This document shows positions 47,511-64,000 of a stretch of 64,000 bases of DNA, one piece after another. Under the pieces are notes generated by a model, which saw only the letters and a program-made list of their open reading frames with translations, was not told the origin of the DNA and ran no database searches. The DNA comes from Schaalia sp. ORNL0103 (GTDB lineage: Bacteria > Actinomycetota > Actinomycetes > Actinomycetales > Actinomycetaceae): positions 1-64,000 of the forward strand of contig NZ_JAHXSA010000003.1 of NCBI RefSeq assembly GCF_019429565.1, written 5' to 3'. Position 1 is the stretch's first letter. Each line of letters begins with the position of its first letter. The position numbers and the translations under genes were made by a program.

Positions 47511-47514
47511 GCCA

Positions 47515-48750
47515 GTGAAGAAACTACGTCGACTTGTGAGGCATGCGTGGCGCGCTCTGAGCGCCCGCGTGCAGGCGCTGCCCGGCTACGAGGGCGTCGC
47601 CCGCTGGCTGGGCGCGCTGACCCCGGTGGGGTGGGCGGTGATCGCGGCGATGGTTGCGGGCACCGTCGCGGCCCTCGCCTTCGGCTGGCTGGAGGGCTTT
47701 ATCGTGGCCGTGATGGGCTTGGTGGCCCTCGTGGTCGCGGTCGCCTCGGTCGCCTCCCCGTCCCCGCTGTCCGTGTCCCTGCGCATGAAGAACGACCGCA
47801 TTGTCGCCGGCCAGGTGGCGGTGGGCCGAGTCCGCGTGGTCAACGAGTCCGGGCGCCGCTCGGGTTCGACCCTCGTGGAGGTGACGATCGGACGAGGCAG
47901 TGGCGAGTTCCTCGTGCCCCCGATCAGCGGAAACGGCACCTGGAACGAGTCTTTCTCGGTCATGACGAAGCGCCGCGGCGTCATCAACGTGGGCCCCGCG
48001 CGCACCGTGCGCATGGACGGCCTGGGCCTGCTGCGCCGCGTGCGTTCGTGGGATGACCCGATCCTCGTGCACGTGCACCCGCCGACGGTGCGTTTCTCCT
48101 TCGACGCGACGGGCATGCAGATGGACGTCGAGGGCGTGGCCAGCGAGAAGCTGACGAGCTCCGACGTGTCCTTCCACGCCCTGCGTGACTACGAGCCGGG
48201 CGACGACCGTCGCGCGGTGCACTGGCCGTCGACGGCGCGCTTTGGCCGCCTGATCGTCCGTCAGTTCGAGGAGACTCACCGCTCGCACCACATGGTGCTG
48301 TTGGATACGCGCGTGGACGCGTGGGATCGGCGCTCCTTTGAGACGGCCGTGTCGGTTGCCGCCTCGCTGGCGCTCGCCGGCTCGGGCGAGGCCCGCACGG
48401 TCTCGATGCACACCGCGGACGAGTGGATCCCCACGGGCTCGCCCATGGCGATGCTGGACGCGCTGTCCGAGATGGAGACGTCGACGCGCTCGGAGTTCGC
48501 GGGCATCGTGCGCCGCTGCATCATGGAACGCGGTGGGATCTCGGTGCTCTCGATCGTCGTCGGCGCCGGCGTGGACGACGAGGAGGCGGCTCGCCTGGCG
48601 AACATCGCTCCTGTCGACGTCATCGTGTCGGTGATTCGCGTGGTCCCGGGCCGATCCCGTCGCCGCCGCAAGATCACGCGCGGCGTCATCATCGACTGCC
48701 CCTCCCTCGAAGATCTGCCGATGCTCGTGTCCCGGGGGGTGAACGCGTGA
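47515..48750 (+). CDS. DUF58 domain protein
   Basis: A 411-residue protein with two adjacent N-terminal membrane helices (GWAVIAAMVAGTVAALAFGW and IVAVMGLVALVVAVASVAS). A domain follows with the DUF58 signature DYEPGDDRRAVHWPSTAR and a vWA-like end (HHMVLLDTRVDAW). DUF58 proteins normally act with a MoxR AAA ATPase, which is absent here. GTG start 4 bases after the previous stop; its end overlaps the next gene (GTGA). Confidence 0.88.
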   Translation: MKKLRRLVRHAWRALSARVQALPGYEGVARWLGALTPVGWAVIAAMVAGTVAALAFGWLEGFIVAVMGLVALVVAVASVASPSPLSVSLRMKNDRIVAGQVAVGRVRVVNESGRRSGSTLVEVTIGRGSGEFLVPPISGNGTWNESFSVMTKRRGVINVGPARTVRMDGLGLLRRVRSWDDPILVHVHPPTVRFSFDATGMQMDVEGVASEKLTSSDVSFHALRDYEPGDDRRAVHWPSTARFGRLIVRQFEETHRSHHMVLLDTRVDAWDRRSFETAVSVAASLALAGSGEARTVSMHTADEWIPTGSPMAMLDALSEMETSTRSEFAGIVRRCIMERGGISVLSIVVGAGVDDEEAARLANIAPVDVIVSVIRVVPGRSRRRRKITRGVIIDCPSLEDLPMLVSRGVNA

Positions 48751-51302
48751 GTACTCCTGCTCGCAACGCCTCGCGTCCGGTTCCTCCGCCGCGTCGCTCC
48801 CGCCGCCCCGCCGCCCAGGAAACCACGATGGGTGGGTCGATCCACCGTGCCGCCATGCCCGCATGGTCCCTGCTGGTCCTCGCGGTCCTCTTTTCCGGTC
48901 CGATCCTCATGTTCGAGTCCGTCTTCGGCGGCGGCCAGGGCGCGATCGCGGCGCTCGCGGGCGTCGTGGTTGGCCTCGTGGTCGCGTGGGCGGCCGCCAA
49001 GCGGCGCTGGGACCTGCTCTCGATTGTCGCGGCGGTCGTGGCCTCGCACTTCCTCTTCGGTGGCGCCGCCGCGCTGCGTGAGACGACCCGCTGGGGTGTG
49101 GTCCCGACGTCGCGGACCATCCAGACGCTGGTCGTCGGTTCGGTCGAGGCCTGGAAAGACCTCCTGACGCTGACGCCGCCGGCCGGCTCCTACGTGGGGC
49201 CCGCGATGGTGCCGTGGATGGCCTGCCTCGTGTGTTCCGTCGCGGCGGGCGTCGTCACGGTGCGCTACGGGCGCCCCATGTGGGGATCCGTGCCGCTGAT
49301 CCTCGCCGGCGTGATCGCGATCGTGTGGGGGCCGTCGAATCACTCTCCGTCCGCCCTCCTCATCATCGCCTGGTGGGTGGGACTCATCGTGTGGTGGGCG
49401 TGGGCCTCGGCGATCGGACGCGCACGATTGGGCGCCGACATCGTCATTGGTATGGCCTCTACGGCGACCACCGCGTCGACGACCATGGGCGGTTCCCAGC
49501 GCCAGATCGTGCACGTGTGGTGGCGCGTGGGCATGGGCGCGCTCATGGTGGGCGTCATGGTCGCTGCGGCGATCCCTGCGGCGTCCCTGCTTGGCCCCAC
49601 GGCCTCGGACCGCGTCGTCGGACGCGACGTCGTCGAGCCGCCCGTGGACGCGCGCCAGTACCCCTCGCCGCTATCGAGCTACCGCCACTACAACAAGGAC
49701 CTTGAGGATGAATCCCTGATCCGCGTGTCCAACATGCCCAAGGAGGCGCGCGTGCGCCTGGGCGCGATGGACGTGTACGACGGGACGACCTTCGGCATGG
49801 GCGTCACGAACACGGCTGACGGCACGGCTGGATACCGCCGCGTGGGGTCCACGATCCCGGGGCGCAGCGCCGATACGGCGGGCGTGCAGACCTCGGTGTC
49901 GACCTCGCAGCTGCTGGGACCGTGGGTGCCCACGATCGGCCAGGTGTCGGTCCTGCGTTTTGAGCCCTCCGCCCCCAACGCGGCCGAGCAGCAGGATGGC
50001 CTGAACTACGACCTGTGGGCGGATACCGCCCTGACGACGGGCCCGACCGGCCAGCTGAGCTACTCGCTGAGCACGACGATGCCGCGCGAACACGCGGACT
50101 CGGAGTTCGCCAGCGTGAACGCGGCGCGCTACGCCGGGGGAGACACGAACGTCCCGAAGGACGTGGACTCCCTGGCCGCGGATCACACGTCGACCGCGCG
50201 CTCGGACCTGGAGAAGGCCCGCGCGATCGAGCAGTTCCTGCACACGGATGGCTACTACTCCAACGAGGACACGATCAATTCGCGTCCCGGCTCCTCCCAG
50301 GACCGCATCGAGCGCATGATCAGCGCTGAGGCGCTGGTGGGCGACGACGAGCAGTACGCGACCCTCATGGCCCTGATGCTGCACTCGCAGGGCATCAACG
50401 CCCGCGTCGTTATGGGCGCCTACCGCGAGGGCACGTCCGGCAGCGTCGACCTGACGGGTTCGGACATGCACGCGTGGGTCGAGGTGGAGTTCCCCGGCGT
50501 GGGATGGGCGACGTTCGATCCGACTCCGCCGCGCGATCAGCAGCCCACGACGCAGGTCAACAAGCCCAAGTCCGTGCCCAAGCCGCAGGTCCTGCAGCCC
50601 CCGGAGCCGCCCGAGCAGCCGGTCGAGCTGCCGCCCGCGACCCGCGATCAGGCGACGGATCCGCACGATCCGAGCGGCGTCCACATCCCGTGGATGGCGA
50701 TCGGAACGGTGTCGGTGTCCCTCCTCCTGCTGCTGGGCCCGGTCCTGGCGGTGCTCCTGGCGAAGTCTCGCCGCCGCAAGAGCCGCCGCCGCGCGCAGGC
50801 CGCCGAGTCGGTGCGCGGCTCGTGGGACGAGCTCGTGGATACCGCGATCGACTCCGGCCTCGTCGTCGAGCCGCACCTGACGCGCCAGGAGGTCGCGTGG
50901 GCGCTGGCCTCGCAGTGGACGCCCAAGAAGTCCGAGAGCGACGAGGAGGGGAACGCCAAGGCCCGTAAGGCGCGCAAGCGCTCTGCTGCGGACGTGCGCG
51001 TGCCCGGCTGGTCGCTCTTCTCGGGCGCGGTTCCCCGGGCCGTCACCGTGGCGCGCCGCGCGGACGTCGCGGACTTCGCTGCCGGCGGTGCCCGCCCCGA
51101 GGACGCGGAGCAGGCGTGGAACGACGTGGATGAGCTGCGTCGCGAGTGGGCGGCCTCGGTGTCGCCGTTCGCGCGACTGCGTTACGCGCTGTCGCTGAAG
51201 TCGCTGCGCTGGCGCCGTCGCGCCCGCCGCCAGGCTGATGCCGCTCGCAAGGGCGGTCGCTCGCTGGCCAAGCGCATGGGTCGTAGGAAAGGGAAACGTT
51301 GA
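48747..51302 (+). CDS. Transglutaminase-fold membrane protein, catalytic Cys replaced
   Basis: An 851-residue protein with about six membrane helices in the first 290 residues, an extracellular transglutaminase-like domain (about 480-600), a Pro-rich linker, one more helix (IGTVSVSLLLLLGPVLAVLL) and a basic cytoplasmic tail. The core reads GDDEQYATLMALMLHSQGIN then DMHAWVEVEFPG and WATFDPTPP. His and Asp of the Cys-His-Asp triad are present, but the Cys position (GxCxxYA) is Asp534, so the domain may bind rather than cut or link peptides. GTG 48747 overlaps DUF58. Confidence 0.85.
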   Translation: MSTPARNASRPVPPPRRSRRPAAQETTMGGSIHRAAMPAWSLLVLAVLFSGPILMFESVFGGGQGAIAALAGVVVGLVVAWAAAKRRWDLLSIVAAVVASHFLFGGAAALRETTRWGVVPTSRTIQTLVVGSVEAWKDLLTLTPPAGSYVGPAMVPWMACLVCSVAAGVVTVRYGRPMWGSVPLILAGVIAIVWGPSNHSPSALLIIAWWVGLIVWWAWASAIGRARLGADIVIGMASTATTASTTMGGSQRQIVHVWWRVGMGALMVGVMVAAAIPAASLLGPTASDRVVGRDVVEPPVDARQYPSPLSSYRHYNKDLEDESLIRVSNMPKEARVRLGAMDVYDGTTFGMGVTNTADGTAGYRRVGSTIPGRSADTAGVQTSVSTSQLLGPWVPTIGQVSVLRFEPSAPNAAEQQDGLNYDLWADTALTTGPTGQLSYSLSTTMPREHADSEFASVNAARYAGGDTNVPKDVDSLAADHTSTARSDLEKARAIEQFLHTDGYYSNEDTINSRPGSSQDRIERMISAEALVGDDEQYATLMALMLHSQGINARVVMGAYREGTSGSVDLTGSDMHAWVEVEFPGVGWATFDPTPPRDQQPTTQVNKPKSVPKPQVLQPPEPPEQPVELPPATRDQATDPHDPSGVHIPWMAIGTVSVSLLLLLGPVLAVLLAKSRRRKSRRRAQAAESVRGSWDELVDTAIDSGLVVEPHLTRQEVAWALASQWTPKKSESDEEGNAKARKARKRSAADVRVPGWSLFSGAVPRAVTVARRADVADFAAGGARPEDAEQAWNDVDELRREWAASVSPFARLRYALSLKSLRWRRRARRQADAARKGGRSLAKRMGRRKGKR

Positions 51303-52819
51303 TGGATAGCGACGCTCGCGTCGGAATGGTGCCGTCGCTGCCGGGTTACGAGTGGATTCGTCCGCTCGGGTCGGGTGGTTTCGCGGACGTGTTCCTGTGC
51401 CGTCAGGAGCTGCCCAGCCGTGAGGTGGCCGTCAAGGTGGCGCGCAGGGATCGCGGGGCGGACGGCGAGGCCGGTATCGCCCGCGAGGCCGACGTGATGG
51501 CTCTCGTGTCGGGTCACCCGGCGGTGGCCCAGCTGTACGGCGCGGGGCGCACGCCGGATGGTCGCCCGTACCTGGTGATGGAGTATTGCCCGGTCGCGAA
51601 CATTCTCGATCAGGTGCGCGCAAACCCGATGTCGACGGATCGCGCGCTGTCGATGGTGATCCGCATGTGCGGTGGCGCTGAGATGCTGCACCGCGCGGGC
51701 TACGTGCACCGGGACATTAAGCCCAGCAACATCATGATCAACGCCTTCGGGTCGCCGGTGCTCACCGACTTCGGCGTGTCCGAGCCGGTGGGTGCAGACC
51801 CGCGTGGCGGCCGCGACGGCTTCTCGGTGATGTGGGCGCCGCCCGAGCAGATTGCGGGCACGGCACGCGCTCACCCGACGCAGGACGTGTGGGCACTGGG
51901 CGCGACCCTGTGGACGCTTCTCATGGGCCGCTCGCCCTTCGAGGTGGAGGACGGGGACAACTCGGCCCACGCGGTCGCCCAGCGCGTCGCCCGCGGCCGC
52001 GTGTCGCGCATCGACCGCCCGGGCGTGCCCGACGCTGTGACGGCTATCGTGCGCCGCGCGATGAGCCTGGACCCGGAGCAGCGCTTCGGGTCGGCGGCAG
52101 CCCTCGGCTACGCGCTGCAGACGGTCGAGCGAGAGATGCACCGCCCGGTCACGGAGATGAAGCTGAGCGTGGTGGCCTCCTCGAGCGCGCCCTCCTCGGC
52201 CCTGTCCGCCCCGTCTGCGGCGGCCCTGGACGCGGAGCGTACGCGCACCCGCCGCGGGAGTTTCGCGGACGGTCCCCAGGCCTCGTCGAACGAGGCGTGG
52301 GCCGGTAACTCGACGACGAACCGAACCGGGTTGGTTGAGGGGCAGTCGAAGCGTCCCGCGTGGGTGGTGCCGGTCCTCGCGCTCGTGATGGTGCTGGCGA
52401 CAGCCGGCCTGGTCGTCGCGATGCTCACCGGCGGCGGACACAGCATCCACCTGGGCGGAGGCGGTGGCGGCGTCTCCACGCCGACGCCCTCCTCGAGCGC
52501 GGGGACAGTGAGCAACTCCGATCAGGGCGACGCGGGCGCCGTCCCGCCCGAGGCCGTCACCGGGTTGACGGCCACACCGAACGGCAACGAGATCCGCTGG
52601 GGCTGGGAGGTGCCCGAGCAGGGCCAGTACCAGCCCGGAGCGCTGGAGTTTAAGTACGTGCTCACCCGCCCGGGCGAGGCCGTGGTGGCCGAGACGATGC
52701 GCCGCAACAGCCTGACGACCACCGCGGTGAGCGGCGAGAACTGCCTGACCGTGAGCCTCGTCGTGACCTCCACGGGCCGCGAGTCTGCCCCGGTGACGCA
52801 GTGTGTGACGGTGCCGTAG
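51302..52819 (+). CDS. Receptor-type Ser/Thr protein kinase
   Basis: A 505-residue membrane kinase. The kinase domain (about 12-280) has glycine loop GSGGFADVF, VAVKVARR, catalytic loop YVHRDIKPSNIM, DFG in LTDFGVSE and WAPPEQ. A linker of about 75 residues, one membrane helix (VVPVLALVMVLATAGLVVAML) and an extracellular domain of about 110 residues follow. That outer part (PPEAVTGLTATPNGNEIRWGW) is fn3-like, not PASTA. It corresponds to Pkb2-type kinases of the fn3-DUF58-transglutaminase cluster. ATG 51302 overlaps the previous stop (TGATG). No PP2C phosphatase is nearby. Confidence 0.92.
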   Translation: MDSDARVGMVPSLPGYEWIRPLGSGGFADVFLCRQELPSREVAVKVARRDRGADGEAGIAREADVMALVSGHPAVAQLYGAGRTPDGRPYLVMEYCPVANILDQVRANPMSTDRALSMVIRMCGGAEMLHRAGYVHRDIKPSNIMINAFGSPVLTDFGVSEPVGADPRGGRDGFSVMWAPPEQIAGTARAHPTQDVWALGATLWTLLMGRSPFEVEDGDNSAHAVAQRVARGRVSRIDRPGVPDAVTAIVRRAMSLDPEQRFGSAAALGYALQTVEREMHRPVTEMKLSVVASSSAPSSALSAPSAAALDAERTRTRRGSFADGPQASSNEAWAGNSTTNRTGLVEGQSKRPAWVVPVLALVMVLATAGLVVAMLTGGGHSIHLGGGGGGVSTPTPSSSAGTVSNSDQGDAGAVPPEAVTGLTATPNGNEIRWGWEVPEQGQYQPGALEFKYVLTRPGEAVVAETMRRNSLTTTAVSGENCLTVSLVVTSTGRESAPVTQCVTVP

Positions 52820-52848
52820 GGCGCTGGTGTCATGCCCTTTCACGACTG

Positions 52849-52878
52849 GCTCGACGGTGCATGACCGAGTGGTAGACT
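52849..52878 (+). promoter_or_regulatory. Promoter candidate for the plus-strand subtilase pair
   Basis: CTCGAC and TAGACT are spaced 18 bp, 44 bases before ATG 52922. The 83-bp gap otherwise holds nothing. Confidence 0.45.
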
Positions 52879-52921
52879 GCTGTGTTGCGCGCCGCCGGGG
52901 CGCGTGGCGAAAGGATGTGTA

Positions 52922-54130
52922 ATGAGGCGCGATATTGCCCGCGTGGCGCAGCGAGGTACGGGGGTCGCCCTGGCCGGCGTGCTTGCTCTTGCAGCACTCG
53001 TGGTTCCTGCGGCCCCAGCATCGGCGGACACCACGATCACGGCGAACGAACAGACCTTCTACGGCTACTACCGCCTGGATGCGATTCACTCGTCGGGCTA
53101 CACGGGTGAAGGCGTGACGATCGCGCTCATTGACGGCCCGGTCAACACGCAGATCCCGGAGCTGGCCGGTGCGCGCATCCAGTCCTACAGTCCCTGCGCC
53201 GTGGGCTCCCAAGACAAGTACTGGGACCACGGCACCGTCATCGCGCAGGTGATTTCCTCGCCTCAGTTCGGCGTGGCACCCGGCGCGAATCTACGCGCTT
53301 ACACAAAGTCGTTTGAAGGTGATACGACGGGTTCCGACTGTGCGATCGGGCAGTGGGGGCGAGGCTACTCCGACCTCGCTCTCCTCATCGAGGACGCGCT
53401 CAACGACGGCGTCGACGTGATCACGACGTCGTCGAGCTACCCCAGTGACTACGAGGGCATGCGCTGGGCTCTCGCCCGCGCGATCGCGGCCAAGGTTCCG
53501 GTCGTCGCCTGCACGGGTAATGATTCGGCGCGCAACTCGACGGAGTGGCTGCCCTCCTGGGGTGGCGTCGTCGGCGTGGGCGCGATCGAGACCAACGGTC
53601 GCCCCTCCGACTACCAGAACTGGGGAAGGCCCCTGTCGACGGTGGCCCTCGCGCGCCCTCTCGCCCGTTCGGGCGTGTCACAGGAACGAGGCGAGTGGTG
53701 GGGGACGTCCTTCGCGACCCCCGTCGTGGCCAGCTCCCTGGCACTGTCCATGCAGCGCTGGCCTCGCGCGACCGGCAACCAGATTATGCAGGGACTGGCC
53801 CGCACGGGTGTGGGCGGCAACGGCGGCGAATGGAACCAATACACGGGGTACGGCGCGCTCGACATCTACGCGATGCTGACGACGAACCCGACGAGTTTCC
53901 CGGATGAAAACCCGTTCATGGACAAGGGAACGAACACGGTTCCCAGCCGACAGGACGTGCAGGACTACATCGACGGCGTGGTGGATCCGCGCGTCGTCAT
54001 GAACGACAACTCATACGAATACCTGGGGTACGACGAGCGTCTCGCACTCAGCCGCGATCATGACTACCCGACGCATCTGGGCACCAGCCCCCGCTACCAC
54101 CAGAAGTTCCAGTCTCAGAAAAAGAACTAA
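52922..54130 (+). CDS. Mycosin-like subtilase 1
   Basis: A 402-residue S8 serine protease with signal peptide (VALAGVLALAALVVPAAPASA). Triad: Asp in VTIALIDGPVN, His in YWDHGTVIAQV, Ser in GTSFATPVVASS; oxyanion Asn in VVACTGNDS. Related to MycP proteases of type VII secretion, but without their C-terminal membrane helix; it ends THLGTSPRYH plus a short basic tail. ATG 52922 has AAAGGA 7 nt upstream. Followed after 41 bp by subtilase 2. Confidence 0.9.
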   Translation: MRRDIARVAQRGTGVALAGVLALAALVVPAAPASADTTITANEQTFYGYYRLDAIHSSGYTGEGVTIALIDGPVNTQIPELAGARIQSYSPCAVGSQDKYWDHGTVIAQVISSPQFGVAPGANLRAYTKSFEGDTTGSDCAIGQWGRGYSDLALLIEDALNDGVDVITTSSSYPSDYEGMRWALARAIAAKVPVVACTGNDSARNSTEWLPSWGGVVGVGAIETNGRPSDYQNWGRPLSTVALARPLARSGVSQERGEWWGTSFATPVVASSLALSMQRWPRATGNQIMQGLARTGVGGNGGEWNQYTGYGALDIYAMLTTNPTSFPDENPFMDKGTNTVPSRQDVQDYIDGVVDPRVVMNDNSYEYLGYDERLALSRDHDYPTHLGTSPRYHQKFQSQKKN

Positions 54131-54171
54131 CGCACGCGGGCGCCCCATTGCGCGCAGCGAAAGGACAGCTG

Positions 54172-55386
54172 ATGAGTCATCTGATGACACGCCTGGCGCG
54201 GCGCTGTTCGGGTGTGGCGGTAGCGGGTTCGCTCGCGGTGGCGGCGCTCGTCGTTCCTGCGGCGCCGGCTTCGGCGGCGCGAATTCCGATCACGGCGGAC
54301 GAGCAGGACTACTACTCGTACTACCACCTGGGGCAGCTGCGCGCGTCGGGTTACACCGGCCGGGGCGTGACGATCGGCCTGCTGGACGGCCCGGTGAACT
54401 GGAAGATCCCGGAGCTGCAGGGCGCGGATATGCAGTACATGAGCCGCTGCGACGTCGAGTCGAGCGACGACAGCTGGGAGCACGGCACGGTGATCGCTCA
54501 GGTGATGGTGGCCCCCGAGTTCGGGATCGCCCCCGAGGCGAGGCTCAACCGCTACACGGTGTCTCTGAAAGGCGATACACCGAGCAGGGACTGTGCAATC
54601 GGCTGGTGGGATGACGGCTATTCGGATACGTCGGTGCTCATCGAGCTGGCGCTCAACGACGGCGTGGATGTTGTGTCGATTTCGTCGACGTACAGCGCGG
54701 ACAGTGAGAGTATGCGCTGGGCTCTGGCCCGCGCGATCACCCAGAAGGTGCCGATCGTGGTGTCGATGGGCAACGATTCGGAGTACAACCCGCCGAAGTC
54801 TCTGGCGCGTATGACGGGCGTGGTGGGCGTGGCGTCGGTGGAGCCTAATGGGGAGTTGACTTCGTACTCCAACTATGGGGACTACGTGTCGACGGCGTCG
54901 GTGTCTCGTCCGTACGCGCGTTCGGGTGCGACGTGGGAGAAGGGGTACTGGCAGGGCACGTCTTTCGCGTCTCCGACGGTTGCGTCATTCCTGGCGTTGG
55001 CCAGGCAGAGCTGGCCCGAGGCGACGGGTAATCAGCTCCTGCAGGCCCTGGCCCGCACGGGGATCGGCGGCAACGGCGGCTACTGGAACCCGTACACGGG
55101 GTACGGGGCGGTGGATCCGTACGTGCTGCTGACCACGGACCCGTCGCAGTTCCCGGACGAGAACCCGTTCTTGAACAAGGGCTATGAGTCTATTCCGACC
55201 CGCCAGGACATCGCGGACTACGCGGACGGCCTGGTGGATCCGAGGCGCATCAACGCGGATGATTCCTACCAGTATCGGGGTTTCGATGAGCGTCTCACCC
55301 TGAGCCACGAGCACGGCTACCCGACGCACCTGGGGACAAGCCCTCGCTTCCATGCGAGCAACGCGAGCAACGCGAAGAAGAAGTAG
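54172..55386 (+). CDS. Mycosin-like subtilase 2
   Basis: A 404-residue paralogue of the preceding gene. Signal peptide (VAVAGSLAVAALVVPAAPASA); triad Asp in VTIGLLDGPVN, His in WEHGTVIAQV, Ser in GTSFASPTVASF; oxyanion Asn in VVSMGNDSEYN. C-terminus again has THLGTSPRFH and lacks a membrane helix. ATG 54172 preferred for AAAGGA 7 nt upstream; TTG 54148 is in frame. Confidence 0.9.
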   Translation: MSHLMTRLARRCSGVAVAGSLAVAALVVPAAPASAARIPITADEQDYYSYYHLGQLRASGYTGRGVTIGLLDGPVNWKIPELQGADMQYMSRCDVESSDDSWEHGTVIAQVMVAPEFGIAPEARLNRYTVSLKGDTPSRDCAIGWWDDGYSDTSVLIELALNDGVDVVSISSTYSADSESMRWALARAITQKVPIVVSMGNDSEYNPPKSLARMTGVVGVASVEPNGELTSYSNYGDYVSTASVSRPYARSGATWEKGYWQGTSFASPTVASFLALARQSWPEATGNQLLQALARTGIGGNGGYWNPYTGYGAVDPYVLLTTDPSQFPDENPFLNKGYESIPTRQDIADYADGLVDPRRINADDSYQYRGFDERLTLSHEHGYPTHLGTSPRFHASNASNAKKK

Positions 55387-55396
55387 CACGTAGGGA

Positions 55397-55438
55397 AGCG
55401 CCCCTGTCGCCCACGGCACGGTGGGTGGCAGGGGCGCT
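55397..55438. terminator. Bidirectional terminator between subtilase groups
   Basis: AGCGCCCCTG (55397-55406) pairs with CAGGGGCGCT (55429-55438), extended inward by CCCAC/GTGGG, between the convergent genes ending at 55386 (+) and 55461 (-). Confidence 0.75.
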
Positions 55439-55460
55439 GCGCTGTGTCGGGTTGCCGAGG

Positions 55461-56705
55461 CTACTTCCGGTGGTATCGGGGGCTCGTTCCCAGGTGGATG
55501 TTTAATCCGTTGTCGAGGCCGAAACCGATGATCAGGTCTTCGTTGGTGCCGCGATAGACGTAGGACTTGGGCATCGTATTCATGACGGTGTTGGGTGTGA
55601 TGGTACCGTCCGCGTAGTCCTGAAGTTCCTGCACAGTGGGGGAGGACCCGCCCGGCTTCTGCAGAATCGGGTTCTCGTCCGGATACTGGGAGGGATCCTC
55701 ATTCACGAGCGAACCCAAAGCGGCTGCACCGTAGCCAGTCTTAGGGTTCCAGTCATGGTTGGGGTTCAAACCCGTGTGTACCAGGAGCTGCAGGATCTGG
55801 TTGGGGGTGGCGTCGGGCCACTTCTGGCGAGCCAGCGCTATCATGCCGGCCACTAGAGCCGTGGATGCCGAAGTTCCTTCGTTCTGTGTGGGTGCGCCTG
55901 TATACGGATCGACAGTATTGATCGGGCCTCCGACTGCAGCGGTGACCACTCCGTTACCCCACGAGGAGTAGGACGCGAACGTGCCGTCGGTATTGATGGC
56001 GGAGGTGCCAACGACACCGGACCACTGGCTCAGGTGCGCACTGTTCTCGTCGGTGCTCTTGTTTCCCGCTGAGGCAACGATGATAACCCCGTGGGAGAGA
56101 GCGTTGGCGATAGCCCATTTCAATTCGTCAGACTGGTCTGATACGCCCTGAGAGACAGAAATGATCTGGGCGCCGTCCTCGACAGCTTGGTTGATGAGCT
56201 TGTCCCACGAATTCTGCTTTTCGCCACCTAGGTCACAGTTACCCGACGAGCGAGAGCTCGAGTTGGTCACCTGATAGCTGAGAAGGGTGGCATCGGGTGC
56301 GACACCCGTATAGGAAGAAACGAGGATCGTCGCCATGTCAGTGCCGTGACGTACCCCCTCCGGCGAGCCCTCGATAGTGCAGCGGCTCTTGTCGGTGATA
56401 TCGGCCCCGGCCAGTTCTGGGGCGTTGATGTCGACTGGGCTGTCGATGAGGGCGATGGTTACCCCCTTACCCGTGTATCCCTTTTGGCGTGCGGAGTCCA
56501 GGTGGTAGTAAGAGAAGTACTCCTGGGTGGTGATCGGGTCCGCAGCACGCGCGGGAGCCGGGGCCAGTGTCAAAACACCAACCGCCAGAGCGAGAGCGGA
56601 GAATGTGGTGGTCAGGGCGCGCGCGGCGCGCCCCGCCCTCCCCACAAAACCGAAGGGAGAACGGGGCGCAGGCTGCGCGCTTGGTCGCGCGTGTGTCATG
56701 GTCAC
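55461..56705 (-). CDS. Mycosin-like subtilase 5 (last of minus-strand trio)
   Basis: A 414-residue secreted S8 protease. Signal peptide ends at APARAADP. Triad: Asp in VTIALIDSPVD, His in VRHGTDMATI, Ser in GTSASTALVAG; oxyanion Asn in VASAGNKS. Ends with HLGTSPRYHRK and has no membrane helix. Nearly identical to the gene at 57931 except for two patches around and after the catalytic Ser. Start overlaps the preceding gene's stop by 4 bases (ATGA). Confidence 0.9.
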   Translation of the reverse strand: MTMTHARPSAQPAPRSPFGFVGRAGRAARALTTTFSALALAVGVLTLAPAPARAADPITTQEYFSYYHLDSARQKGYTGKGVTIALIDSPVDINAPELAGADITDKSRCTIEGSPEGVRHGTDMATILVSSYTGVAPDATLLSYQVTNSSSRSSGNCDLGGEKQNSWDKLINQAVEDGAQIISVSQGVSDQSDELKWAIANALSHGVIIVASAGNKSTDENSAHLSQWSGVVGTSAINTDGTFASYSSWGNGVVTAAVGGPINTVDPYTGAPTQNEGTSASTALVAGMIALARQKWPDATPNQILQLLVHTGLNPNHDWNPKTGYGAAALGSLVNEDPSQYPDENPILQKPGGSSPTVQELQDYADGTITPNTVMNTMPKSYVYRGTNEDLIIGFGLDNGLNIHLGTSPRYHRK

Positions 56706-57934
56706 TTCCGGTGGTAGCGGGGGCTGGTTCCCAGGTGGACGGTCAATTCCAAGTCGTCGAACATAGCCGCTACTTCATCTGCGCCTCGGTAGACGTAGGA
56801 CGATGGGAAGGTGGCCAGCGAGTTGAATACGATTCCGTCGGTGTAGTCCTGAATCTCCTGGACGGTAGGCTCGGAGCCCCCATGTTTTTGAATGATCGGA
56901 TTCTCGTCAGGGTACTGGGAGGGATCCGTGTTGACCAGATCTGCAAGAGAAGCTGAGCCGTAGCCGGTGTACTGGTCCCACGTATGGTTGGGATTGAGTC
57001 CTGTGTTGACCAGTACCTGGAGGATCTGGTTCGCGGTGGCGTCGGGCCACTTCTGGCGTGCAAGGGCCATCATGCCGGCCACGAGCGCTGCCGACACGGA
57101 TGTTCCGTTCACGGTTGTGGGCTCACCGGTCGATAGGTCATACGTGGTGTAGGGGCCGCCAAAAGCAGTGGTGACTACGCCATCGCCCCACGAAGAGTAG
57201 GACGCGAACGTGCCGTCGCTGTTGATCGCGGACACGCCAACAACCCCAGAGAACCTGCCCAGTTGAGTCACGTTATCATCGCTGGCGCCATTTCCGGCTG
57301 AGGCGACGATGATGACACCCTTGCTGATGGCGTTAGCGATCGCCCACTTGAGCTCAGGATTGTCCTCTGAGACACTTTGCGAAACCGAGATGATCTGAGC
57401 ACCGTCTTCGACAGCCTGGTTAATGAGATTGCCGAAAGAGTTGAGTCGGCGTTCGCCCGAATCACATGTTCCGTTCGACGTCGCGGACGCTGTCTCCGTC
57501 TGATACGTATTCAGCGTCGCATCCGGTGCCACACCGTTCTTGGAAGAGACCAAAATGATCGCCATGTCGGTACCGTGTCGGATACCCTCGGGCGAGGCTT
57601 CGACGGTGCAACGACTCTTATCAGTGACCTTGGCACCCTGAAGAGCAGCATTGCTGGTATCAACCGGGCTGCCAATAAGAGCAATGGTCACACCCTTGCC
57701 GGTGTATCCCTTCGCACGTGCGGAGTCTAGGTGGTAGTACGAGAAGTACTCCTGGGTGGTGATCGGGTCCGCAGCACGCGCGGGGGCCGGAGCCAGTGTG
57801 AGGGCCCCGGCTGCCAGTGCGAGAGCGGAGGCGGCGGTGGTCAGGGCGCGCGCGGCGCGCCCCGCCCTCCCCACAAAACCGAAGGGAGAACGGGGCGCGG
57901 GCTGCGCGCATGCTTGCGCGTGTGTCATGGTCAC
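56702..57934 (-). CDS. Mycosin-like subtilase 4, catalytic Asp replaced by Gly
   Basis: A 410-residue paralogue with the same signal peptide and C-terminal HLGTSPRYHRK. His (IRHGTDMAII), oxyanion Asn (ASAGNGAS) and Ser (GTSVSAALVAG) remain, but the Asp of the first motif is Gly: VTIALIGSPVD, Gly88, codon GGC at 57671-57673 read on the minus strand. Proteolysis should be lost or severely weakened. It diverges from its two neighbours throughout the domain, so it is not a recent copy. Overlaps both flanking genes by 4 bases. Confidence 0.88.
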   Translation of the reverse strand: MTMTHAQACAQPAPRSPFGFVGRAGRAARALTTAASALALAAGALTLAPAPARAADPITTQEYFSYYHLDSARAKGYTGKGVTIALIGSPVDTSNAALQGAKVTDKSRCTVEASPEGIRHGTDMAIILVSSKNGVAPDATLNTYQTETASATSNGTCDSGERRLNSFGNLINQAVEDGAQIISVSQSVSEDNPELKWAIANAISKGVIIVASAGNGASDDNVTQLGRFSGVVGVSAINSDGTFASYSSWGDGVVTTAFGGPYTTYDLSTGEPTTVNGTSVSAALVAGMMALARQKWPDATANQILQVLVNTGLNPNHTWDQYTGYGSASLADLVNTDPSQYPDENPIIQKHGGSEPTVQEIQDYTDGIVFNSLATFPSSYVYRGADEVAAMFDDLELTVHLGTSPRYHRK

Positions 57935-59160
57935 TTCCGGTGGTAGCGGGGGCTCGTTCCCAGGTGGATGTTCAAACCGTTGTCGAGGCCGAAACCGATG
58001 ATCAGGTCTTCGTTGGTGCCGCGATAGACGTAGGACTTGGGCATCGTATTCATGACGGTGTTGGGCGTGATGGTACCGTCCGCGTAGTCCTGAAGTTCCT
58101 GCACAGTGGGGGAGGACCCGCCCGGCTTCTGCAGAAGCGGATTCTCGTCCGGGTACTGCGAAGGATCCGTGTTGACCAGTGCGCCACCGTCAATCGCTCC
58201 ATATCCGGTGTATGGCGTCCACTCGTGGTTGGGGTTCAAGCTGGTGTGAACCAGGAGTTGCAGGATCTGGTTGGGGGTGGCGTCGGGCCACTTCTGGCGA
58301 GCCAGCGCTATCATGCCTGCGACCAGAGCCGTCGAATTCGAGGTGCCTTCTGTCTGTGCAGGCTCGCCTGTGTTGGCATCAAGTGAGTTGAAAGGCCCGC
58401 CGACAGCGGCGGTGACCACTCCGTTACCCCACGAGGAGTAGGACGCGAACGTGCCGTCGGTGTTGATGGCGGAGGTGCCAACGACACCGGACCACTGGCT
58501 CAGGTGCGCACTGTTCTCGTCGGTGCTCTTGTTTCCCGCTGAGGCAACGATGATAACCCCGTGGGAGACGGCGTTGGCGATAGCCCATTTCAATTCGTCA
58601 GACTGGTCTGATACGCCCTGAGAGACAGAAATGATCTGGGCGCCGTCCTCGACAGCTTGGTTGATGAGCTTGTCCCACGAATTCTGCTTTTCGCCCCCTA
58701 GGTCGCAGTTACCCGACGAGCGAGAGCTCGAGTTGGTCACCTGATAGCTGAGAAGGGTGGCATCGGGTGCGACACCCGTATAGGAAGAAACGAGGATCGT
58801 CGCCATGTCAGTGCCGTGACGTACCCCCTCCGGCGAGCCCTCGATAGTGCAGCGGCTCTTGTCGGTGATATCGGCCCCGGCCAGTTCTGGGGCATTGATG
58901 TCGACTGGGCTGTCGATGAGGGCGATGGTTACGCCCTTACCCGTGTACCCCTTCGCACGTGCAGCATCGAAGTGATAGTAAGAGAAATACTCCTGGGTGG
59001 TGATCGGGTCCGCAGCACGCGCGGGAGCCGGGGCCAGTGTCAAAACACCAACCGCCAGAGCGAGAGCGGAGAATGCGGTGGTCAGGGCGCGCGCGGCGCG
59101 CCCCGCCCTCCCCACAAAAGCGAAGGGAGAACGGGGCGCGACGTTGGAACGAATGCTCAC
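57931..59160 (-). CDS. Mycosin-like subtilase 3 (first of minus-strand trio)
   Basis: A 409-residue secreted S8 protease, close twin of the gene at 55461. Triad: Asp in VTIALIDSPVD, His in VRHGTDMATI, Ser in GTSNSTALVAG. GTG 59160 is preferred because it overlaps the upstream stop by four bases (GTGA), as at the other junctions; an ATG at 59178 is in frame but would overlap further. It directly follows the Gly-rich T7SS protein gene, tying the proteases to secretion. Confidence 0.88.
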   Translation of the reverse strand: MSIRSNVAPRSPFAFVGRAGRAARALTTAFSALALAVGVLTLAPAPARAADPITTQEYFSYYHFDAARAKGYTGKGVTIALIDSPVDINAPELAGADITDKSRCTIEGSPEGVRHGTDMATILVSSYTGVAPDATLLSYQVTNSSSRSSGNCDLGGEKQNSWDKLINQAVEDGAQIISVSQGVSDQSDELKWAIANAVSHGVIIVASAGNKSTDENSAHLSQWSGVVGTSAINTDGTFASYSSWGNGVVTAAVGGPFNSLDANTGEPAQTEGTSNSTALVAGMIALARQKWPDATPNQILQLLVHTSLNPNHEWTPYTGYGAIDGGALVNTDPSQYPDENPLLQKPGGSSPTVQELQDYADGTITPNTVMNTMPKSYVYRGTNEDLIIGFGLDNGLNIHLGTSPRYHRK

Positions 59161-60872
59161 CACTGGCGGGGGTCCCATCCGTCGTCCGCACGCTTTGCCG
59201 GCGTGATGTCCTTGTCGGTGCCGGAGGTCTGCGACAGGGGATTCACGTAGCCCGGAGGCAGCGCGTCCTCGTCATCGTCGAATTTGAATGCGACGTACTG
59301 GCGCTTGCGGCCCTTCTTGTCGTCCTTGCCAGCTCCACTACCAGCACCCGCTCCGGCACCCATGAAGCCACCGCTCGTCGTGCCGCCCTTGCCAGCCGCA
59401 CCGGCTGCACCCGCAGCGCCGCCGTTTGCGCCCGTGGAGCCCGTGACGCCGGAGGAACCGGCGACACCGTTCGCGCCGCCAGCGCCGGCCGCGCCCGCAG
59501 ATCCTGCGGGAGGCGTGTAGGAGCCGAAGCCGGAGCCGGAGTAAGAACCGACCTTCAGGCCAGCAGCGCTCGCGCCGCCAAGACCGTTGGTCGAGCCGGT
59601 GACGCCGCGCATGCCCGCGGCGCCCATGCGACCGGCACCGGACAGGCCGCCGGCCGAGCCGGACCCGCCGAGGCCGTTCGCACCCGCACCGGATCCGCCG
59701 AAGCGGCCAAGGGCACTGGAACCGGCGCCGCCGAAGCGCCCGAACATGCCGGAGCCGCCGAGGGAACCGGAGCCGCCGAAGCTGCCCGAACCCATGCGGG
59801 CTGTGCCGCGCAGGCCGAGGGCGCCCGCGCCGAGCACGCCCGCGCCACCGAGGCGGCCGGAGGTGGTCACGTCGGAAGCCCCGCCACCGTTGAGACGCCA
59901 CAGCGGGTGATGAGCGTCCGCCGGCGGTGCCGGGGTGTGACCACCGACGACGCCGTTGCGGTAAGTGGTACCGTTCACGCTCTTGTGCAGCAGGTCGGTG
60001 CCCATGAGCTCCTGGGGATCCGTGATCGGGTTCGTGCGGGAACCGAGCTCACCGTAGGGCAGCTCGCGCGTCGGAACGGCGCCCGAGGCCACGATGCGGT
60101 TTTGTGCGGCGGCCGCGTCGGCTTCGCTCCACCACGGCTGGTTGAAGCCGTCGGGGTAGTTCGGCGAAGAAGGGCTGCGGTCGTCATTACGGCCGTAACC
60201 ATTGCTACTCGTGCCGCCCCAGATCGGTGGTGTTCCACCGGTCCAGTTGTCCGGAGGCCTATACGAGCTGCTTTCATTACCATCCGGATCCGGAGTGGGA
60301 ACTGGAGTGGGAACTTTCGGTCCGGCACCGATGCGCATGCCGCTGCTCATCCTGGCCGTGCCAGAATTCATCTGCTCGAGGATGCGCGCGGCAGCTGCCT
60401 CGCGCTGGGCGTTGGCCTGGGCCTCGACTGCTTCGACGTAGGCTGCGCCGGTCGTGTAGCGCCTGCCCATGAACTCGATACCGCCACCCGGATCCTTGTC
60501 GGAGACGGAGACCACCCAGTCGTCGCGCATAGCGGCAGTCTTCGCATCCAGCAGATCGTCGGAGATCGTCTCGGCCTCGGCCAGAGCAAACCGCATGACC
60601 TGGCGGCCCATTTCGTAGCTCTGGTACCCGCGCGCGTAGTTTGACTGGTACCACTTAATGCGCTCGATCGATGCGTCGACCCATCGGTCCATCGCATCGC
60701 CCGTTGCACCGGTGAAGCCATGGCTCTCGCGGTAGGCGTTAAGCTGTTGGACTGACTCTTCGAATCCCTTGAGGATCTGTTCGTGATCGGTGTCCCATGC
60801 ATCAAGACCCTGATTAGCTTGAGCCGCCTTCATGAATTCCTTCAAGCGCTCATACATCGGAGATGAAACCAT
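59157..60872 (-). CDS. Gly-rich PPE/WXG-like T7SS protein
   Basis: A 571-residue protein. Residues 1-200 are helical with charged amphipathic segments (MYERLKEFMKAAQANQGLD, WVDASIERIKWYQSNYARG) like WXG100/PPE heads. The middle is Pro/Gly/Asn-rich. Residues about 310-510 are Gly/Ala/Ser low complexity with repeats such as GGSGSLGGSGMFGRFGG. The end is charged (KGRKRQYVAFKFDDDEDALP). No signal peptide, as expected for a T7SS substrate or chaperoned partner. ATG 60872 has GAAGGGA upstream. It follows the small WXG-like gene by 25 bp, suggesting a heterodimer pair. Confidence 0.75.
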   Translation of the reverse strand: MVSSPMYERLKEFMKAAQANQGLDAWDTDHEQILKGFEESVQQLNAYRESHGFTGATGDAMDRWVDASIERIKWYQSNYARGYQSYEMGRQVMRFALAEAETISDDLLDAKTAAMRDDWVVSVSDKDPGGGIEFMGRRYTTGAAYVEAVEAQANAQREAAAARILEQMNSGTARMSSGMRIGAGPKVPTPVPTPDPDGNESSSYRPPDNWTGGTPPIWGGTSSNGYGRNDDRSPSSPNYPDGFNQPWWSEADAAAAQNRIVASGAVPTRELPYGELGSRTNPITDPQELMGTDLLHKSVNGTTYRNGVVGGHTPAPPADAHHPLWRLNGGGASDVTTSGRLGGAGVLGAGALGLRGTARMGSGSFGGSGSLGGSGMFGRFGGAGSSALGRFGGSGAGANGLGGSGSAGGLSGAGRMGAAGMRGVTGSTNGLGGASAAGLKVGSYSGSGFGSYTPPAGSAGAAGAGGANGVAGSSGVTGSTGANGGAAGAAGAAGKGGTTSGGFMGAGAGAGSGAGKDDKKGRKRQYVAFKFDDDEDALPPGYVNPLSQTSGTDKDITPAKRADDGWDPRQW

Positions 60873-60897
60873 GGTGAAAATCCCTTCTAAAGCTAAC

Positions 60898-61476
60898 TCA
60901 GTACGTGCTAGGTTTTGGAGCTGCAGTTTGCGTCGCCGACGATGCCTGCTGGGCATCTGCTGTGGTTGCTCCTCGTACACCACTGAGACCAACTGCTGCG
61001 CCCAACGCTGCACCTGCGGCAGTCTTGTTCGTGGCACCACCCAGGAATCCCTGGGCGATGTCCGCAGTCGATACCTTCATTCCCATACGCGCGTAAATTC
61101 CCTGCATGGTTGCCAATGCAGAGCTCTTTGCGATGAAGCCACCTACTGTGTCCGACATGATCTTCTTCATCGCAGTTGCGTTTGCATACTCAACACCTGT
61201 GAATTCCTTCATGGCCCGGTGCATGTATGCCTCGAACTCCTGAATCAGATCCCTCTCTGCAGTGAGGAGCTCTGAGATCGTGTCGAACATATCCGTAGCG
61301 CGGGTTCGCATTTGGACGGGGCCGGTCTCCTGTCCCCAGAAGGAAGACTGTTGAGCAGCGCTCAGGGCGTTCGCGCCGTTGCGTGAGCCGTCGACGGCGT
61401 CCCAGGTTTCGACCACTTTCGTAGCCGCTGCTGTCTGCCGATCGTTATCGTACTGAACTCCGGAGTGTCCGGTCAT
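60898..61476 (-). CDS. WXG100-like ESX protein
   Basis: A 192-residue mostly helical protein. The first 110 residues suggest a helical hairpin with FWGQ (W-x-G-like turn) between helices; the segment DTISELLTAERDLIQEFEAY is a long amphipathic helix. The C-terminal 60 residues are Ala/Thr/Gly-rich. No signal peptide. Likely a secreted partner of the following PPE-like protein. ATG has AGGAG 6 nt upstream. Longer than the classical 100-residue EsxA type. Confidence 0.7.
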   Translation of the reverse strand: MTGHSGVQYDNDRQTAAATKVVETWDAVDGSRNGANALSAAQQSSFWGQETGPVQMRTRATDMFDTISELLTAERDLIQEFEAYMHRAMKEFTGVEYANATAMKKIMSDTVGGFIAKSSALATMQGIYARMGMKVSTADIAQGFLGGATNKTAAGAALGAAVGLSGVRGATTADAQQASSATQTAAPKPSTY

Positions 61477-61532
61477 TGTTAACTCCTAATTGTCGATGGA
61501 AGATGAAAGAGGGCTGCGATGCGCCCAGTTGC

Positions 61533-62075
61533 TTACTTGGCGACCTTGAAGCGGCGGACCAGCGGCTGGTCGGGCTGGTCAGAGCCCTCAATCTTCAGGG
61601 TCCACACGTAGGTCAGATCAGAGCCCGAACCCTCCACGTCCACGGTCCAAGACGAGTAGTACTCACAGTTCTGCTCCACGCACAGGTCATAGGTGTCATT
61701 GCCCAGCCGCCAAAAATCAGTCGCCGACATCATCTGGTAGATCGTCTCATTCTTATTGACGACCGTCTGGCCCTTGGGATCCAGCTTGAACCTCTGCTGA
61801 GAGATCGTCACGGGGGCCTCGGCCACCAGCTGCGCGCCGACCATGTTGTTCAAGGCGACGGCCTTCGCGGCGATCTGCTTCTTCTGATCGCCCGACGCGG
61901 ACTGCATCTGCTGCACCAGCTGCTGCTTCTGCCCCTGAGGAATGTTGGGCAGCTTGCTGATATCGGTGGCCTTAGAGCCACCCCCACCGAAGAGGGAGCA
62001 GCCCGACAGCGCGACGGCAGCGAGCAGCAGGGACGAGGTGGCCGCACATGCGCGACGGGACACGAGAGAGGACAT
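61533..62075 (-). CDS. T7SS-locus lipoprotein
   Basis: A 180-residue lipoprotein with lipobox LSGC (SLLLAAVALSGCSLFGGGG) and a domain of about 120 residues containing two Cys (LCVEQNCEYY) probably disulfide-bonded. No family recognised. ATG 62075 has TAGGAG 6 nt upstream. Placement between eccC and the WXG-like gene suggests a role at the outer face of the secretion machinery. Confidence 0.75.
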   Translation of the reverse strand: MSSLVSRRACAATSSLLLAAVALSGCSLFGGGGSKATDISKLPNIPQGQKQQLVQQMQSASGDQKKQIAAKAVALNNMVGAQLVAEAPVTISQQRFKLDPKGQTVVNKNETIYQMMSATDFWRLGNDTYDLCVEQNCEYYSSWTVDVEGSGSDLTYVWTLKIEGSDQPDQPLVRRFKVAK

Positions 62076-62139
62076 ATTTTCTCCTACTTTCAGACTGGTC
62101 AATCATATGCGACGAACGGGTCGCTGTGTCAACAAACGG

Positions 62140-64000
62140 TCAGATTGATGCGGGTGGGGTGTTCGCCAGCTGGGCAGCGACCACGCCGAGCTCACGGTGG
62201 ACAACCTGCGCGCGGCCCGGAACGGCGCGCTTGGGCTTGACACCGTTGATGATCGCGCCCTCGCTGGGATTGCCCGACAGGAGAATGCCGGTGACCGCCA
62301 GGTCGTTCATCATCTGCAGGACCTTCTCGTAGGCCGCACGCGACGCGCCACCCATACGGCGGGTGATGATCACGTGCAGGCCGATGTCGGCGGCCTGCGG
62401 CAGCAGGTCGATGAGCTCCATGAGCGGGTTGCCCGACGTCGTCGCGACCAGGTCGTAGTCGTCGACCAGGATCCACACCTCGGGGCCCGACCACCAGCTG
62501 CGGTCGCGAATCTGCTCGGGAGTCACGTCCGAACCCGGCAGGCGCGTGCGCAGGAATGCTGCGAGCTCGCGCATCTGCTTCATGGCCTCGGAGTGGTTCG
62601 TCAGGTACCCCAGCTGGTAGTCCTTCGGAATCGCTCCCATGAGCGTGCGGCGCATGTCGATCGACATGATCTTTGCCTCACCCGGCGTGTACAGGCGCGT
62701 GACCTCGGAAATGATCGAGCGCAGGAACGTCGTCTTGCCCGTCTTGCCGTCGCCGAACAGGTACAGGTGCGACTCTGCGCGGGTGTTGAACAGAAGGGGA
62801 CCGAGGCGGGACTCCTCCACGCCCAGGATCATGTCGCCACCGCCACGCGGCAGGACCAGCGGCTCGGGGATCTGCGCGAGGATCTCGGGAACCGTGACGT
62901 TTTCGGGCAGCAGGCGTAGCTTCGGGCCCTCGCCGTGGACCAGCGACTCGCGGATCTTCGCCACCGTGCGGGCAACGCCCTGTGACACGGTCGACGGATC
63001 CGGATCGTCGTCGGCGCGCGGCAGGCCGATCATCATCTCGTGGCCCACCATGTCGATGCCTCGACCCGGGCGTCCCTTCGGAATACGGGCGGCGCCCTCG
63101 CGGTTGACGATCGACTCCTTCGGGTTCGCCGTGTGCAGCTCCAGGCGCGAACCGAAGATGTCCTGCGCCTCCGAACGGATGTCCATCCAACGGGCGGCCG
63201 ACACGATGAGGTGGACGCCCAGCGACAGGCCTCGGCTCATCATCGTCGTCACCGTGCGGTCCAGGCCGTCGAACTCGCTGCGCAGCGCGCCCCAGCCGTC
63301 GATGACCAGGAACACGTCGCCGTAGCCGTCGTCGTAGGTGCCTTCTAGGCGCCCGCGACGGTAGGTGTCCATCGAGTCGATGCCGTGCGCGCGGAAGTAA
63401 CGCTCGCGGTCGTCCATGATCGCCGCGATCTCGGCGATCATACGAGTGCGCACTTCCTCGGTGTCGCGCGTCGCGATGCCCGCCACGTGCGGGGCGCCCG
63501 CAAAGCCGGCGAACGTACCGCCGCCGAAGTCCATGACGTAGAACTGGACTTCCTGCGGCGTGTAGGTCAGCGACAGGGCCTGCACGATCGTACGCAGCGC
63601 CGTCGACTTACCCGTCTGCGGGCCGCCGACCAGCGCGAAGTTACCGCCCGCGCCCGACAGGTCCAGGACGAGGGTCTCGCGACGCTGCTCGAGCGGCAGG
63701 TCGACCGTGCCCAGGGGCACGCGCAGGGGGCCGGACTCACGCCACGCGCGCGACACGAAGCCGAGCTCCGGGTCCGGGCGCAGGTCGGGCATGAGGGTCG
63801 CGAAGGTATCCGGGATCTCCAGCGGCGGCAGCCACACCTGGTGCGCCGGGTAGCCCTTGCCCTTCATCTTCTCCACGGCGATGTCCATCTCGGACATGTC
63901 CGCCCACACCTCGTCGCCGGCCAGAACGACTTCCTGGTTCTGGTCGATCTCTTCCTCCTCGCCCAGGTCCTCGCGCGTGATGACGGGAGCGACCGTGAAC
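62140..64000 (-). CDS. eccC: T7SS ATPase EccC, C-terminal part (5' end outside window)
   Basis: About 620 residues of the FtsK/SpoIIIE-type motor of type VII secretion; the frame stays open to the window edge. Two ATPase domains are visible: GGPQTGKSTAL with VFLVIDGWGAL, and GDGKTGKTTFL with VWILVDDYDLV. Full EccC proteins have an N-terminal membrane part and a first ATPase domain, which would lie beyond 64000. It probably heads the minus-strand operon and energises export of the WXG/PPE-like pair. Confidence 0.93.
   Translation of the reverse strand, partial: FTVAPVITREDLGEEEEIDQNQEVVLAGDEVWADMSEMDIAVEKMKGKGYPAHQVWLPPLEIPDTFATLMPDLRPDPELGFVSRAWRESGPLRVPLGTVDLPLEQRRETLVLDLSGAGGNFALVGGPQTGKSTALRTIVQALSLTYTPQEVQFYVMDFGGGTFAGFAGAPHVAGIATRDTEEVRTRMIAEIAAIMDDRERYFRAHGIDSMDTYRRGRLEGTYDDGYGDVFLVIDGWGALRSEFDGLDRTVTTMMSRGLSLGVHLIVSAARWMDIRSEAQDIFGSRLELHTANPKESIVNREGAARIPKGRPGRGIDMVGHEMMIGLPRADDDPDPSTVSQGVARTVAKIRESLVHGEGPKLRLLPENVTVPEILAQIPEPLVLPRGGGDMILGVEESRLGPLLFNTRAESHLYLFGDGKTGKTTFLRSIISEVTRLYTPGEAKIMSIDMRRTLMGAIPKDYQLGYLTNHSEAMKQMRELAAFLRTRLPGSDVTPEQIRDRSWWSGPEVWILVDDYDLVATTSGNPLMELIDLLPQAADIGLHVIITRRMGGASRAAYEKVLQMMNDLAVTGILLSGNPSEGAIINGVKPKRAVPGRAQVVHRELGVVAAQLANTPPASI

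Follow-up and report, generated by a model that had tools for sequence, protein, structure and literature searches.

Unanchored subtilases distinct from mycosins accompany candidate type VII secretion substrates in a genome of probable Schaalia odontolytica affiliation

Why should a single type VII secretion system (T7SS) locus encode five subtilases, when one mycosin (MycP) per locus is the usual number? The question is raised by a 64 kb stretch of DNA (the window), the first 64 kb of contig C3 in a genome of 2.35 Mb and four contigs, where a sequence-only reading had described five mycosin-like S8 proteases, S1 to S5, beside the motor ATPase gene EccC. That observation was sound in its count and gains interest in its context, yet it does not describe a set of mycosins. 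S1–S5 are unanchored subtilases with N-terminal export signals, which belong to a clade distinct from MycP. Their family is expanded in the odontolytica clade, where over half of it stands as the last gene or genes of a cassette, behind the genes here called SMALL and GLY. In the following, G-labels denote the genomes compared (G000 is the own genome), L-labels loci, and C1–C3 contigs. The features, in window coordinates, are:

S1, 52904..54130, plus strand: secreted mycosin-like subtilase with intact triad and tail HLGTSPRYH, 3' of the kinase gene, with no adjoining Gly-rich partner
S2, 54148..55386, plus strand: secreted mycosin-like subtilase with intact triad and tail HLGTSPRFH, convergent with S3
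S3, 55461..56705, minus strand: third subtilase of the cassette, a near-copy of S5 with divergent islands
S4, 56702..57934, minus strand: middle subtilase of the cassette, with Gly in place of the catalytic Asp
S5, 57931..59178, minus strand: first subtilase of the cassette, its start overlapping the GLY stop by 22 nt
GLY, 59157..60872, minus strand: proposed T7SS substrate, with a predicted N-terminal helical hairpin (about 1-180), a disordered Gly-rich rest and the C-terminus DDGWDPRQW
SMALL, 60898..61476, minus strand: proposed helical partner of GLY, with a WGxE motif and no Pfam family
LIPO, 61533..62102, minus strand: lipoprotein with lipobox, first gene of most multi-protease cassettes
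EccC, 62140..64000 (gene to contig position 66231), minus strand: T7SS motor ATPase
Ser/Thr kinase gene, 51299..52819, plus strand: just 5' of S1, a neighbour and only possibly a member of the system

The five open reading frames (ORFs) were found as described, and all exceed the Pfam Peptidase_S8 cut-off of 21.8 bits, with scores of 68.2–105.3. Their identification as mycosins, on the other hand, had to be given up. For comparison, chosen stretches of 16 of the 35 genus genomes were searched with a profile into which the 11 own copies had entered at full length with their tails, and 15 of the 16 genomes yielded 86 secreted copies; because the profile contained the tail and the stretches were chosen, tail and clade counts are skewed toward family members and do not amount to a census. 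In a tree of 111 rows, 85 secreted rows formed one clade with a Shimodaira–Hasegawa-like approximate likelihood ratio (SH-aLRT) of 99, and 14 anchored genus proteins grouped with the MycP of mycobacteria and Nocardia. Furthermore, 20 secreted rows stayed together with a bootstrap of 100 in a 42-row tree, where a topology uniting the five with MycP to the exclusion of their secreted kin was rejected by the approximately unbiased (AU) test (p = 1.2e-133); a single clade of secreted family and MycP among S8 proteins was not rejected (p 0.45). A tree position outside the mycosin clade was the result that the sequence-only reading had itself named as refuting it. The anatomy agrees with this separation. 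A C-terminal hydrophobic segment was present in none of the 86 secreted copies and in all 14 MycP, whereas the C-terminal tail was present in 86 of 86 copies collected with the tail-bearing profile and in none of the 14 MycP. N-terminal hydrophobic stretches occur in 82 of the 86, and cleavage sites of AxA type were seen by eye in the own copies. Scores against the mycosin profile TIGR03921 (112.6–164.7 bits for S1–S5) lie below the equivalog cut-off of 278.75, a threshold which the genuine MycP of this locus also misses (216.2). The C-terminal part of the subtilases carries Y-x-G-x-[DN], which most own copies spell YRGxD. Over the GTSPRYH tail, block values of the predicted local distance difference test (pLDDT) in the subtilase model are 39–53, too low to suggest a role.

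That MycP lies outside the window. Past EccC, contig C3 carries a gene that matches EccD weakly, then two WXG100 genes, EccD, EccB, three more subtilases (S6, S7 and S8, C3:72955-76924), a YbaB-like gene and two further genes. EccC (62140-66231, contig coordinates), the only EccCa over cut-off in the own genome, is above both NCBIfam EccC cut-offs, and both WXG100 genes are over theirs; EccB (147.6 bits, cut-off 154) and EccD (91.1, cut-off 94.95) fall short of NCBIfam thresholds and are above those of Pfam. EccC, announced from the sequence, is real; the WXG100 genes, EccD and EccB stand beyond the window end, and the parts by which a T7SSa/ESX locus is recognised (EccC, EccB, EccD, a WXG100 pair and MycP) are all present at one locus. 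Its MycP is S6 (C3:72955-74478), which possesses a C-terminal hydrophobic anchor at residues 465-493 and the highest TIGR03921 score of the eight subtilases. The genome contains 21 S8 matches, 12 of them of mycosin size, eight at the ESX locus and four on C2, so that the count of five holds for the window and not for the locus, which has eight, nor for the genome. S6 is the sole true mycosin among the 12; alignment showed the tail H[LI]GTSPR[YF]H in the remaining 11. Downstream, at G000:C3:77059-80002, the YbaB/EbfC-like gene precedes two genes whose EspC and WXG100 matches stay below threshold, an order which we take to be reminiscent of espL-espB of ESX-1. Very large subtilase frames (703-2180 aa) are also grouped elsewhere, at G000:C1:365338-381740, C1:1260268-1275758 and C2:108036-113476.

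The second line of evidence is gene order. The minus-strand genes follow one another as EccC, LIPO, SMALL, GLY, S5, S4 and S3, with 4-bp overlaps at both junctions of the protease trio, as had been claimed, and a 22-bp overlap between S5 and the Gly-rich ORF (59157-61040); a later in-frame GTG of S5 would give a 4-nt GTGA overlap, and the start of the Gly-rich ORF is, judging from alignment, probably near 60872 rather than 61040. S1 and S2 lie on the plus strand behind the kinase gene and point toward S3. The C2 copies have the same neighbour genes as the ESX locus. Profiles run over the fetched stretches gave a common cassette order of optional LIPO, SMALL, GLY and one to three subtilases, the SMALL protein bearing WxG. 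The proposal that the proteases form part of a T7SS operon is supported. The GLY-end pattern (DGWDPRQW plus stop) had 36 matches, spread over 7 of the 35 genus genomes, with no match for the reversed control, and at each of the 33 sites that could be checked a subtilase started immediately after the GLY end. The overlap, counted from the first start codon, is exactly 22 nt at 31 of the 36 sites; three ends lie inside a longer ORF, and two, at a contig edge or in a stretch not fetched, show no overlap. The C-termini of 31 GLY-subtilase pairs read DDGWDPRQW (26), DDGWDLRQW (3), DDGWDPGQW (1) and DDGWDISQW (1). Overall, 52 of the 86 collected copies are chained to a GLY end; for the own genome the figure is 7 of 11.

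Cassettes of different species often occupy common chromosomal sites, the ESX locus aside, as comparison of flanks revealed. The GLY profile matched in 11 of 35 genus genomes, strongly in eight, where long GLY genes number about four to seven per genome beside fragments, and in weak partial form in G001, G021 and G027; a looser profile of the GLY N-domain added weak matches in G007 and G009. Not every family member has a GLY: S1, S2, S7 and S8 are without one, as are the copies that G022 and G016 carry next to LIPO only (L103 6364-6903 and L107 6500-7108). Since LIPO accompanies lone subtilases in these two genomes, there is a hint that it associates with the protease rather than with GLY. In one cassette (L061 3586-6315, G006), the GLY N-domain and a subtilase share one long frame and the GLY end is in another, which is either a natural frameshift or a sequence error. 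Scanning of 52500-62400 gave no promoter-like site (mean of shuffles 1.5) and 11 terminator-like sites, 5.3 being expected, several of them within S3 and S5. In five cassettes, a hexamer search found TTGACA-17-CATATG 5' of LIPO; given its poor second hexamer, no claim is made for it. Literature searches on mycosins, T7SS, subtilisin-like proteins and WXG100 in Actinomyces, Schaalia and Streptomyces listed no description of the SMALL-GLY-subtilase cassette.

What, then, might GLY and SMALL be? In the GLY model, residues 1-180 are predicted to be helical (block pLDDT 65-92) and residues 181-571 fall below 50. Neither window protein matched the curated Pfam families searched (WXG100, PPE, LXG, EspB/EspC) at E 1, and among relatives there were weak matches of WXG100 in 1 of 19 GLY (E 0.027) and of EspC in 2 of 18 SMALL (best E 0.036). 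No PE or PPE family appeared among the Pfam matches of either protein, and Pfam recognised no toxin domain in GLY. Profiles against solved structures returned nothing of weight, the best values being E 0.43 for GLY and 0.006 for SMALL, the latter with a capsid fusion; no EspB chain appeared among the GLY matches up to E 10. Foldseek with the GLY model had no match at E 0.001, and inspection of SMALL and GLY by eye for the YxxxD/E signal showed nothing consistent.

The best reading of gene order, clade and anatomy is a family of T7SS substrate–protease cassettes, to which we give an even chance of being correct. Everything past the gene order we infer, namely the export routes, the pairing of GLY with SMALL and cleavage by the neighbouring protease. 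Most likely, SMALL and GLY would form a helical pair exported by the single ESX-type machine, with the fixed C-terminus of GLY serving as a docking signal. After export by Sec, the subtilase of the cassette would act unanchored at the cell surface and cut GLY outside the membrane. The precedent is mycobacterial, and it is described in PMC5156307, where the MycP1 protein itself is required for secretion and its protease activity cleaves EspB; in PMC11217815, MycP appears as a loosely associated cap with possible substrate processing. On this reading, the cassettes would be multiplied versions of the MycP1–EspB theme that have become detached from the core, a development parallel to the PE/PPE expansion. 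To judge from the arrangement, each cargo would be accompanied by a processing enzyme of its own, and the earlier idea that several substrates are processed is plausible.

The best surviving alternative, although an unlikely one, takes the subtilases for general secreted proteases that serve feeding or act on host proteins, and whose expansion next to T7SS genes was a matter of chance. The invariable position directly behind GLY at the 33 checked sites speaks against it, and so does the distribution of the tail. An actinobacterial EccC was found in 25 of the 35 genus genomes, 24 over cut-off and one (G030) in two pieces at contig edges; four of the ten without it have long EccC-like matches of 298-343 bits (cut-off 509). 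A shorter tail pattern occurred in 19 of the 25 EccC-bearing genomes and in none of the ten others (Fisher p 4.4e-5, uncorrected for kinship). Elsewhere in the taxonomic family, which adds 178 genomes, it gave seven single matches, against nine for the reversed control; five of the seven were fetched and contained no relative, and in the remaining two Cys or Trp stands in place of the Ser. Within the taxonomic family searched, the tail family was thus found only in this genus. As to linkage with EccC, many homologues are unlinked to it; the tie to T7SS persists in a different form, since 52 of the 86 belong to cassettes with substrate-like genes, and within the genus the tail was seen in EccC-bearing genomes only.

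The surplus over one mycosin per locus is real when set against other genera of the taxonomic family. Among 17 EccC-bearing genomes from these, chosen of 42 found, the DNA within 25 kb of the best EccC contained one mycosin-like match in 14, two in one and none in one, and in the remaining genome EccC and MycP were on separate contigs. Eight other members of the genus had 1 to 3 mycosin-like genes within the same distance. Odontolytica-clade loci for which both flanks of EccC were fetched carried 4 (G013), 6 (G018), 7 (G005), 8 (G000) and 9 (G020) subtilases, counts which leave out G006, G023 and G024, fetched in part or split by contig ends.

The active sites and the distances between cassette members are in keeping with the substrate–protease reading; the divergence between copies also bears on a second alternative. 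Asp, His and Ser of the triad, together with the oxyanion Asn, are complete in 78 of the 86 secreted copies; S1, S2, S3 and S5 are complete, and S4 is without the Asp. Gly replaces Asp in five copies (S4, C2_79629 and one each in G006, G023 and G024), Glu does so in two, and in a single copy Asp, His and Asn are all lost. As the five Gly copies share one clade (SH-aLRT 81), an Asp-less line is retained across four genomes, the own included. S3 and S5, compared in 60-column windows, are 95-100 percent alike in 14 of 21 and 53-90 percent in the remaining seven. When an own cassette on C3 was compared with one on C2, windows of 120 columns gave 77 and then 94-99 percent for LIPO, 28-60 for SMALL, 37-70 for the first part of GLY and 76-90 for its end. 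This mosaic, to judge from the alignments, looks like exchange between copies. Moreover, distances across 30 cassettes were correlated between SMALL and the GLY N-domain (0.91) and between the GLY N-domain and the subtilase (r 0.86), the value for genome difference being -0.06; joint inheritance accounts for this as well as co-adaptation.

Such strong diversification by mosaic exchange, and a tail shared by every collected copy, albeit under a collecting bias, would suit subtilases that act as effectors in their own right, chaperoned by SMALL and GLY and bearing the tail as T7SS signal. Nevertheless, the N-terminal hydrophobic stretches and the AxA-type sites favour Sec, and we regard this alternative as improbable. 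Least of all does it persuade that the five are mycosins, serving the machine or processing several substrates or each other, a very remote prospect in which their TIGR03921 matches and the unrejected joint clade with MycP are outweighed by their separate clade, the missing anchor, the rejected placement apart from their kin, scores below a cut-off that the true MycP misses too, and the presence of that MycP at the locus. The substrate–protease reading could be carried further, to self-contained cargo cassettes in which a diversifying helical pair and its matched protease are addressed to one machine by a C-terminal code DDGWDxxQW, with mosaic proteases and an Asp-less member as non-cutting partner; this fuller form is tentative and rather doubtful.

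The source genome belongs most likely to the Schaalia (Actinomyces) odontolytica group, an assignment based on where close relatives of S5 were found. Of seven such loci, two come from Schaalia odontolytica FDAARGOS_732, one each from Actinomyces sp. HPA0247 and Actinomyces sp. S6-Spd3, two from records under the name Xylanimonas and one from a record under the name Sanguibacter. The records Xylanimonas cellulosilytica 352_XCEL and Sanguibacter keddieii 250_SKED (L016, L018, L021) contain odontolytica-type subtilases and look misnamed. On the other side of S1 and S2, which directly follow it, a plus-strand run (window 41469-52819) encodes a 2013-aa protein with Ig-like and fn3 domains, a DUF58 protein, a transglutaminase and the Ser/Thr kinase, and is reminiscent of the bifidobacterial kinase-fn3-DUF58-transglutaminase (PFNA) cluster.

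How does the system compare with those already known? A mycosin-like protease gene adjoining a WXG-type secreted protein has been listed before, for Ntox38 polymorphic toxins (PMC3482391); GLY differs in having no toxin domain recognised by Pfam and a fixed end motif instead of a variable toxin domain. The PE/PPE families, units multiplied from a T7SS locus (PMC1660551), are alike (PE_PGRS, PPE) in their paired helical proteins, a pairing proposed for the cassettes, Gly-rich extension and expansion in a T7SS-bearing lineage, but here there is no PE/PPE Pfam match, each unit has its own protease and the long GLY genes number four to seven per genome. If the proposed reading is true, a second, independent T7SS lineage would have multiplied paired Gly-rich substrates, in the human mouth flora.

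EspB is a helical protein whose C-terminal part is disordered, and the EspB–MycP1 pair of ESX-1 resembles the cassettes, going by the predicted form of GLY, in placing such a protein beside a T7SS-linked subtilase; in the genus studied, however, the protease comes with every cassette and is dispersed, and no EspB chain is among the solved structures that the GLY profile matches up to E 10. With the MycP of ESX/T7SSa, S1–S5 have in common the S8 fold, the EccC/EccB/EccD locus and a likely processing of EspB-like substrates. They differ in the absence of a C-terminal anchor, in their separate clade, conserved tail and many copies, in that the locus has its own MycP, and in that over half of the copies are paired with a substrate-like gene and not with the core. 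Mycosin-type proteolysis is hard to study in T7SS because secretion also depends on the MycP protein. In this genome both tasks seem to be divided between an anchored MycP with the machine and many unanchored subtilases with the likely substrates; if so, substrate cleavage would be open to study without breaking the machine.

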